Assembly (NCBI GenBank): GCA_951828515.1
Contig: OX639992.1
Span: 5,620,217 to 5,684,216, forward strand
Reading direction: 5' to 3'
Length of the DNA: 64,000 nucleotides
Source: an uncultured Poribacteria bacterium
Lineage (GTDB): Bacteria; Poribacteria; WGA-4E; WGA-3G
Shown: piece after piece, positions 4,181-33,507 of the stretch
Numbering within the stretch: position 1 is the stretch's first letter
Layout: every line of letters begins with the position of its first letter
Position numbers and translations under genes: made by a program
Notes under the pieces: model-generated
What the model was told of the DNA's origin: nothing
The model's input: the letters and a program-made list of their open reading frames with translations, nothing else
Databases searched by the model: none

Positions 4181-5473
4181 CTAACACCGGTGGGAGGGGT
4201 TTCTAACCCCGATATCCAAGGTATTGTTTTCAAAGAAAGCATTCGGATTGGTTTTCCCACGGACTAACGCCGCCATCCCATCGGTTTGAAAGCAGTTGTT
4301 ATAGAAGCGGATGTTACGAATTCCTTCGCTGTCACAGTCAACTGCGGCAGGATTTCCATCAGCGGATTGCGTCGTGAAGATTGTGTTGGCGTAAAAAGTT
4401 GTGTCCGTGATACCACCGCTCGCACCTGTAGACCAGAGGTGAATGCCTCCGTAACGATTCTTCCTACCGTCGTTGACACTCACATTATGGCGAAGGGTGT
4501 TCCTATAAAACGCACGGGCACCGCTGAACTGTGCCAGCAGATACCCGGGTCCATCATTATCATGGGAATAGTTGTGCTGAACAGTCGAATTCCGCACCCC
4601 GCCATCGAGATCGAACCCACCGCCATCTTTACTGCTGCCAGTACGGTTGTGATGAGATTCGTTGAACTGAATGACAACACGGTTCGCGTCCCATACCCAG
4701 ATTCCAACGGGACCCCCGCCGTCGTAATCGTTTAAGCTGCCATTTTCGTAAGCACGACACCGTTCAATTAACGCTCCATCCATCTGTGCGAGGACAATCC
4801 CGTTTCCTGAGTGCCCTCCCTTGCCGGGGATGCCAGCGTTCCTATAAACACTGCAGTTACCGACATAAAAGTCGGCATGCGCATATCCATCCCGTTCCGG
4901 ATTCCAAACCCCGATACAACTGATACCTGCATCACCGTTATCATGACTCACTGCATAGGTAATTTTGACATCACAAAAACCGCTCCAACTCCGATCTGGT
5001 GGTTCCGCCCTGAAACAGATCCCTGAATGTTTGAAACCGCTGACATCAACGCGATGAATCCGAATATCTCCCAACTTAATCCCACCGGATAGCGTATTAA
5101 TGAACACGATGCCAGAATGGGTATTCTCAGACGCACCCGCACCGACAAAGTTGAGTTCTCTTAGATGGACACTCCCCATATTCTTCACGACGAAACCGGT
5201 ACCGTTCCCCGCGTCCATAGTGGCTCTACCGGATCCATAGGAGCTTATTGTTACCGCACACAGCGTGTGTTTATTACTTTCTGTTACGGCACACGGCGTG
5301 TGCCTACTACTTTGCAGACAGAGATTCCCAAGGAAGGTCTGATTGGCTTGAAACAGGACAGTATCCCCCGGCAACAACTGTGCGGCGTTCACTCGTTCAA
5401 TACTTTGCCACGGGCTCGCTTTGGACGTGCCAACGTTTGAATCGTCACCGAGCAAACTCACGTAATAATCCAC
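4181..5473 (-). CDS. right-handed parallel beta-helix protein (pectate-lyase-like fold) with in-frame repeat insertion
   Basis: 430 residues from a GTG start (caaggaaaaattaaaaaGTG; weak AAGGA). Starts with the family's DYYVSLLGDDSNVGT and continues as short beta-helix coils rich in N, G and D (e.g. GNGIVLAQMDGALIERCRAY, HNRTGSSKDGGGFDLDGGV, NYSHDNDGPGYLLAQFSG). Such proteins bind or cleave polysaccharides. No signal peptide is seen, unlike most relatives, so the export signal may have been lost or the start may be further upstream. Two oddities: residues encoded by 5256-5318 are an 11-residue tandem (SSRHTPCAVTE / SNKHTLCAVTI) derived from palindromic repeat DNA, and the last residues (GVRNPSHRC) come from another REP-like palindrome at 4186-4213. 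Function beyond the fold is unknown. Confidence 0.75.
   Translation of the reverse strand: MDYYVSLLGDDSNVGTSKASPWQSIERVNAAQLLPGDTVLFQANQTFLGNLCLQSSRHTPCAVTESNKHTLCAVTISSYGSGRATMDAGNGTGFVVKNMGSVHLRELNFVGAGASENTHSGIVFINTLSGGIKLGDIRIHRVDVSGFKHSGICFRAEPPDRSWSGFCDVKITYAVSHDNGDAGISCIGVWNPERDGYAHADFYVGNCSVYRNAGIPGKGGHSGNGIVLAQMDGALIERCRAYENGSLNDYDGGGPVGIWVWDANRVVIQFNESHHNRTGSSKDGGGFDLDGGVRNSTVQHNYSHDNDGPGYLLAQFSGARAFYRNTLRHNVSVNDGRKNRYGGIHLWSTGASGGITDTTFYANTIFTTQSADGNPAAVDCDSEGIRNIRFYNNCFQTDGMAALVRGKTNPNAFFENNTLDIGVRNPSHRC
4186..4213 (+). repeat. REP-like palindrome forming the 3' end of the beta-helix gene
   Basis: GTGG head followed by GA and the hairpin GGGGTT-TCT-AACCCC (stem 4196-4210). It lies in the last codons of the gene at 4181-5473 and supplies its C-terminal residues. 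The same family occurs in opposite orientation at 14361-14385 inside pstA2. Confidence 0.6.
5256..5318 (-). repeat. tandem palindromic repeat inserted in frame in a coding sequence
   Basis: On the minus strand two ~33-base units follow each other, one with GTAG plus the palindrome GCACACGCCGTGTGC, the second a degenerate copy with ACACACGCTGTGTGC. Both end in GTAAC. They encode RHTPCAVTE and KHTLCAVTI in the host protein. The unit length is a multiple of three, so the frame is kept. Confidence 0.65.
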
Positions 5474-13556: not shown

Positions 13557-14411
13557 ATGAATGCCTTAATGACCCGTCCAGAATCGAGAAAAAAAATCGC
13601 CTTGCAGGGCATCGCTTTCATTATGGTGGGAGCCGCTTTTATTTTCCTCTGGAATGACCTTAAAAAAACAGCCACGGCTCACATTCAAACGTCGTCAGTA
13701 TCTCGTATATCGGGCACATTGCCCAGTTTACTCAGCGATCTCAATCTGATTCTACCTATCAGCCTGATGGCAGTTCTGTTCGGGGTAGCCTGCGCTTTTT
13801 ACTTAGAGGAATGGCTTCCAGCAACAAGCTGGGTTCGACGTTTCATCGAAAGTCCAGTCGATTTTTTGATTGAAATTCCTTCACTCTTGTACGGGCTCTT
13901 AGCAATCACGATTTTCTTCAACTACGCTGGCATTTTCAAAGAGATTGGAACGCCTCCTCTCCAGAACGTGAATGAATCCGGATTAGACGTAATACCGTTC
14001 CAACGTAATACTACGATATTTTATGCAGAGGCTTTAATCTTCATTCTCATGGTAACGCCAGTAGCACTCAAAACAACCCAAGAGGCACTTCGATCGGTTG
14101 CGACCCCCATCCGTGAATCTGCTTATGTGTTAGGTGCCAATCAATGGCAAGTATTAGCAAAACAGGTTGTGCCACTTGCCTTTCCAAGGATACTTTCGGG
14201 GGCATGCCGAGCAATGTCTCGAGCATTCGCCGCAGCTGCCTTACTTATCGGTATTCATATATCCGACCATACAACAGGTCCGAGAGGAATACCGGATAGG
14301 TTCATGTTATTTTTAGGAGGCGCACTGCTATTGAGTACTATTTCCAGTTTCCTGAAGGAATCGAGGTTAGAAACCTCTCCCACCGTCACGGCACGACACG
14401 ATTCACTATGA
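13557..14411 (+). CDS. second PstA-like permease (PstA2), divergent
   Basis: 284 residues with about six hydrophobic segments. PstA-class features are recognisable but worn: AVLFGVACAFYLEEWLP, EIPSLLYGLLAITIFF, and an EAA loop RESAYVLGANQWQVLAKQVV followed by SGACRAMSRAFAAAALLIGI, where PstA has GETAP. A segment at ~140-155 (VNESGLDVIPFQRN) is longer than usual. No second PstC accompanies it, so it may replace PstA in an alternative complex with PstC. The last ~14 codons (RLETSPTVTARHDSL) contain a REP-like palindrome (14361-14385), which probably rewrote the C-terminus. Downstream is pstB3. Confidence 0.75.
   Translation: MNALMTRPESRKKIALQGIAFIMVGAAFIFLWNDLKKTATAHIQTSSVSRISGTLPSLLSDLNLILPISLMAVLFGVACAFYLEEWLPATSWVRRFIESPVDFLIEIPSLLYGLLAITIFFNYAGIFKEIGTPPLQNVNESGLDVIPFQRNTTIFYAEALIFILMVTPVALKTTQEALRSVATPIRESAYVLGANQWQVLAKQVVPLAFPRILSGACRAMSRAFAAAALLIGIHISDHTTGPRGIPDRFMLFLGGALLLSTISSFLKESRLETSPTVTARHDSL
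14361..14385 (-). repeat. REP-like palindrome inside the 3' end of pstA2
   Basis: On the minus strand GTGG, GA, then hairpin GAGGTT-TCT-AACCTC. Same family as 4186-4213. It encodes the residues LETSP near the PstA2 C-terminus. Confidence 0.55.
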
Positions 14412-33391: not shown

Positions 33392-33507
33392 TATAGTAGA
33401 ACCCGTAATTACTTATACACCGACAGAGAGGCGAGGTTAGAAACCTCGCCAGCGAAACGGTGGGACCTGTTTATCAAAATGTAAACTTATTTTCAGAAAC
33501 TACTATA
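33392..33507 (+). repeat. MITE copy, 116 bases, diverged
   Basis: Ends TATAGTAGAACCC and a right end of ...ACTACTATA with a weaker right repeat; core hairpin GGCGAGGTT-AGA-AACCTCGCC (minor form). Confidence 0.7.

Follow-up and report, generated by a model that had tools for sequence, protein, structure and literature searches.

GTAG-type REP elements read in frame in a beta-helix protein gene of a Poribacteria bacterium

Analysis of a 64,000-nucleotide stretch of a Poribacteria genome (the window) revealed two palindromic repeat units that are read in frame on the minus strand as part of a 430-aa beta-helix protein (Table 1), in which the order of segments in the ORF translation is GNLCLQ-SSRHTPCAVTE-SNKHTLCAVTI-SSYGSG. 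The two middle segments, SSRHTPCAVTE and SNKHTLCAVTI, are encoded by REP DNA, and the insert is very probably a tandem pair of GTAG-type REPs, inserted in frame into a surface loop that tolerates them. The original prediction that in-frame palindromic DNA is the source of these protein segments was supported by the finding of a genome-wide repeat family whose members are read in other frames elsewhere. The position proposed for the insert, 5256-5318, identified the right site, but its bounds shift slightly, as REP-derived DNA spans about 5247-5317 (-).

Direct 33-nt copies at 5244-5276 and 5277-5309 are 79% alike and each is palindromic, the core of unit 1 being a perfect 8+1+8 inverted repeat, GGCACACG-N-CGTGTGCC, which has one match in the window versus 0.01 expected from shuffles. 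Unit 2 lies one 33-nt period from unit 1 and differs from the 29-nt consensus by 5 mismatches, while the second unit of an orthologue (L016/L060) is closer to consensus, with 3 mismatches. A role of the RNA hairpin as a special signal in the mRNA was rejected, the fold z-score of -1.44 being unexceptional.

Table 1. Window coordinates of the host gene and of the REP features within it
Feature	Position	Strand	Description and basis
Host gene	4181..5473	-	Right-handed beta-helix protein, 430 aa, GH136 lacto-N-biosidase-like fold; ORF, Pfam, AF2, Foldseek
REP unit 1, pristine	5280..5317	-	CTGCAAAGTAGTAGGCACACGCCGTGTGCCGTAACAGA, encodes LQSSRHTPCAVTE; palindromic core 5288-5304; covariance model 55.8 bits, E 3.7e-9
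REP unit 2, degenerate	5247..5284	-	Encodes SNKHTLCAVT; fuzzy match, 33-nt direct repeat
GTAG tag of REP unit 1	5307..5310	-	Two bases ahead of stem 5288-5304; read from sequence

The REP family and its candidate mobiliser

The repeat unit belongs to a family, AAAGTAGTAGGCACACNCCGTGTGCCGTAAC, with 73 covariance-model matches (E<=1e-3) across the 5.85 Mb of its own genome; the core at <=1 mismatch occurs at 24 places genome-wide, versus 0 for the reversed control. Aligned copies read AAAGTAGTAGGCACAC[T/G]CCGTGTGCCGTAAC, and the family hairpin is GTAGTAGGCACACTCCGTGTGCC. Among 85 genomes of the phylum, covariance-model matches were present in 65, all restricted to genera of its own order, and none was found in other classes or otherwise outside that order.

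Covariation of the 7-bp stem was assessed in 34 distinct ungapped 38-nt copies from the same genome against 5000 shuffles. Pairing was preserved in 235 of 238 cells (shuffle maximum 229), with 10 double changes (shuffle maximum 5), and one stem position uses three Watson-Crick pairs, C-G, T-A and G-C. An unpaired GTAG stands two bases ahead of the stem in nearly all copies: TAG is present in all 34 distinct copies and the full GTAG in 33 of them, and GTAG was found in 64 of 65 copies. Tandem clusters are spaced 32, 33, 34, 36, 38 or 45 nt. The family is thus a dispersed, mostly extragenic palindrome with an unpaired GTAG, compensatory stem changes and a flanked RAYT gene, and, judged by the sequence of its tag and the associated transposase, the focal repeat is a GTAG-type REP element.

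The candidate mobiliser, L057, encodes a putative RAYT of 213 aa and, among six Y1_Tnp matches in the genome, is the one with the focal REP on both sides, inverted copies adjoining the gene. The protein matches Pfam Y1_Tnp with 27.4 bits (cut-off 23) and the NCBIfam model REP_Tyr_transpos ('REP-associated tyrosine transposase') with 58.7 bits, below its cut-off of 80; its HUH motif (HVH) reads PNHVHLLV. Close homologues (76-88% identity, one broken) occur in eight other genomes, each homologue being accompanied by the focal REP family, and all 9 loci with a RAYT at >=76% identity carry the focal REP at the gene. The focal REP was absent from more distant homologues (34-39%) and, in another twelve genomes, from Y1 genes other than this type. 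Among the matches listed, and with kinship ignored, genus genomes with an L057-type RAYT have a median of 55 REP copies versus 26 in those without (p=0.002), and many genomes carry focal REPs without such a RAYT. A plasmid search for the L057 RAYT gave one distant match only. The L057-type RAYT probably spread the focal REP, as its flanking repeats suggest.

Four further Y1_Tnp genes of this genome (L053, L054, L055 and L056) are each flanked by arrays of their own distinct palindrome, those at L054-L056 being GTAG-tagged, and several REP/RAYT systems thus appear to coexist in this genome. A palindrome at 33427-33453 of the window, GGCGAGGTTAGAAACCTCGCC, is of the same family as the repeats flanking the L055 Y1_Tnp gene.

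The host protein and its loop across orthologues

Both the profile and the predicted fold assign the host protein to the right-handed beta-helices: it matches Pfam Beta_helix (PF13229) with 30.4 bits, above cut-off, its AlphaFold2 model has a mean pLDDT of 92.3, and its top Foldseek matches are GH136 lacto-N-biosidases (E 2.6e-14). These enzymes are also right-handed beta-helices and give the best structural and sequence matches; however, the host protein is shorter and only about 17-20% identical to them, the likeness being one of predicted fold. No obvious signal peptide was seen in the 430 residues. A second palindromic repeat, GTGGGAGGGGTTTCTAACCCCGA (window 4190-4212, +), runs over the 3' end of the host gene and supplies the final residues of the protein, IGVRNPSH; a relative with 2 mismatches lies at window 14361-14383.

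The insert had been suggested as a possible surface loop, which accords with the AlphaFold2 model, where residues 58-60 and 64-69 of the REP loop have pLDDT <50 between two strands of an otherwise confident beta-helix. The loop is probably disordered.

Orthologues of the host protein are present in 47 of 85 Poribacteria genomes, and its nearest annotated orthologues all come from Poribacteria assemblies. Two REP units are found in the window protein, L060 and L061, and one unit in L062 and L066; L069 and L076 have one unit with a broken palindrome and a similar peptide, and the remaining orthologues have loops unrelated to the REP peptide. Measured from GNL to SYG, two-unit loops have 26 residues and one-unit loops 15-19. 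REP-less loops have 17-20 residues within the genus, and those of other genera have 17-23. In L073 and L075 the loop is 15 residues long and may hold a decayed REP unit. The net gain of the focal protein over REP-less loops is therefore about 6-9 residues. The expectation that the flanks GNLCLQ and ISSYGSG would join smoothly without the insert did not hold, since REP-less genus orthologues have 17-20 other residues there, and a clean 22-residue insertion was ruled out by these unrelated loops. The REP therefore either displaced a loop that was already there or was later trimmed, and a second unit makes the loop longer.

In a host-gene tree built without the loop, REP and REP-less alleles are interleaved, with L061 (REP) sister to L064 (REP-less). 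This tree did not yield one common origin for the REP allele: 5 presence/absence changes are needed, 4 of them forced by well-supported branches. The interleaving of alleles requires loss, recombination or repeated insertion.

In-frame copies in other genes

Examination of 54 REP sites in the genome for coding signal on both flanks placed 8 inside ORFs, in different frames and on both strands. The genes hit are the focal beta-helix gene, ksgA, bioB, nnr (yjeF), a mobA-like gene, an Eco57I-type methylase, a cytochrome c554/TPR protein and one more. The original prediction had proposed a search for RHTPCAV peptides in other proteins of the genome; in-frame copies of the repeat lie in at least seven further genes, with other peptide sequences. 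The in-frame peptides (SSRHTPCAVT, GTETVPTTFK, VAGTVPVPSA and VVGRCRSAV) vary by frame and strand, and therefore the repeat is kept as DNA, not as peptide. One Eco57I/BREX PglX-like methylase (L204 1-3039, +) has an in-frame REP, KESSRHNPLCRSI, upstream of the methylase domain.

The REP site of ksgA is just ahead of the NLPY motif; all outgroup genes have a short connection there (an empty site), and where filled the site has one or two units. Two genus members (L228 and L237) have short APTTFK remnants at this site that are absent from outgroups and look, by their sequence, like partly deleted REPs. Several members of the genus, like most outgroups, lack the bioB insert; bioB L385 of genome G038, from genus g4, has two in-frame units, SFTAQRSVPTTLTSESFTAQPSVPTTL, at the site that is also occupied in the window's genus.

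Tandem REPs also make up the N-terminal part of two ORFs, with KATAQRRVSATFK units in L184 (1441-2862, +) and RHNGVCLLLWF units ahead of a cation efflux protein in L208 (531-1685, -). The true starts of these ORFs may lie downstream of the arrays, which are uncertain and stand outside the 8 of 54 sites counted within ORFs.

A broader proposal is that the REP/RAYT system in Poribacteria has added peptide again and again to the same loops of conserved enzymes, independently of genus, as the empty, one-unit and two-unit forms of bioB in g1 and g4 would illustrate; this is a speculative extension, with the balance of probability well against it. If true, recurrent insertion would keep generating loop diversity at preferred sites and would not amount to a few rare accidents.

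Origin of the insert and relation to known systems

In the proposed mechanism, which draws on TnpAREP work, the RAYT, a predicted HUH/Y1 tyrosine nuclease, would nick single-stranded DNA at REP hairpins and paste copies elsewhere. Most insertions in genes, including those that break the frame, would be purged, while insertions within loops that keep the frame open would survive as neutral new peptide. A surviving REP would sometimes be duplicated as a 33-nt unit, and its peptide would later decay as ordinary coding sequence.

Several observations count against this explanation: the focal REP took over a loop instead of merely adding to one, which leaves no clean footprint of transposition; REP and REP-less alleles are interleaved on the host-gene tree; the L057 protein scores below the NCBIfam cut-off; and many genomes have the REPs without this RAYT. 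Alternatively, the REP could have been copied into the loop by template switching or homologous recombination, as gene conversion at short matches, with the RAYT no more than an associated gene; this is the one alternative with appreciable, if minor, probability. Besides the substituted loop, which is of similar length, and the interleaved alleles on the host-gene tree, it would account for a short junction match, the allele ends being CCGATAACC without REP and GCCGTAACA with it (CCGATAAC versus CCGTAAC), and for the 33/33 identity of unit 1 between the window gene and L060, genes that are 84% identical. However, this identity is weak evidence, as 33/33-identity windows also occur elsewhere in host-gene comparisons; every close L057-type RAYT is flanked by the focal REP, and ksgA and bioB acquired REPs where outgroups have a shorter connection, which counts against this alternative.

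Selection of the encoded loop for a function, for instance in ligand contact or cysteine chemistry, is improbable. L069 and L076 retain part of the peptide despite their broken palindromes, and the loop sits on a carbohydrate-enzyme-like fold according to Foldseek, but many orthologues have unrelated loops and the loop itself is of low confidence in AlphaFold2 and probably disordered. The cysteine noted in both added units is present in the window protein but not conserved: L069 and L076 have Ser or Leu in its place, and L061 has Gly at the cysteine position of the second unit. A cysteine pair or disulphide role was ruled out by these losses, and therefore no cysteine-based role is indicated, nor is any function of the REP-encoded peptide.

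An ancestral protein tandem repeat, in which SRHTPCAVT is old and the palindrome a coincidence of codons, as orthologues with the same peptide in unrelated codons might have revealed, has next to no probability: the peptide or a relic of it occurs in the window protein, L060, L061, L062, L066, L069 and L076, but outgroup genera are without it, and the reading is refuted by identical DNA that stands at noncoding, intergenic sites and that other genes read in other frames (GTETVPTT, VAGTVPVP and VVGRCRSAV).

In-frame insertion of a tandem REP pair, the preferred explanation, has precedents. GTAG REPs are short palindromes that carry an unpaired GTAG on the 5' side and occur both dispersed and in clusters, and in REPtrons the RAYT gene is REP-flanked (PMC3733652, PMC8266576). 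In-frame GTAG and CGTC REPs, often tandem or dimeric, were described in other bacteria, including O. terrae and Thauera, and loops were suggested as sites that tolerate them (Di Nocera et al. 2013, PMC3733652). That paper has 0 mentions of Poribacteria, and its main text does not name ksgA or bioB as REP-hit genes; the literature searched gave no report of REPs in Poribacteria and no further intragenic REP case. KsgA and BioB are housekeeping enzymes with known structures, which allows REP insertion and the cost of new loop peptides to be tested. Empty sites, one unit, two units and decayed units form a natural series of mobile hairpin DNA becoming protein.

The likeness first drawn was to Rickettsia palindromic elements (RPE), in which palindromic, mobile-like DNA is likewise in frame in unrelated protein genes and creates new peptide segments. 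This part of the resemblance stands, but the intragenic R. conorii RPE-4 and RPE-6 are of the CGTC kind (PMC3733652), whereas the focal tag is GTAG and is linked to a RAYT; the two are set apart by description. The focal family shares with the GTAG REP/RAYT systems its anatomy, the flanking of a RAYT gene and intragenic in-frame tandem copies, while its 7-bp stem sequence and RAYT lineage are particular to this group. In-frame REPs are an already described kind, of which the Poribacteria family is a new member, and in-frame GTAG REPs are hereby extended to these sponge-associated bacteria.
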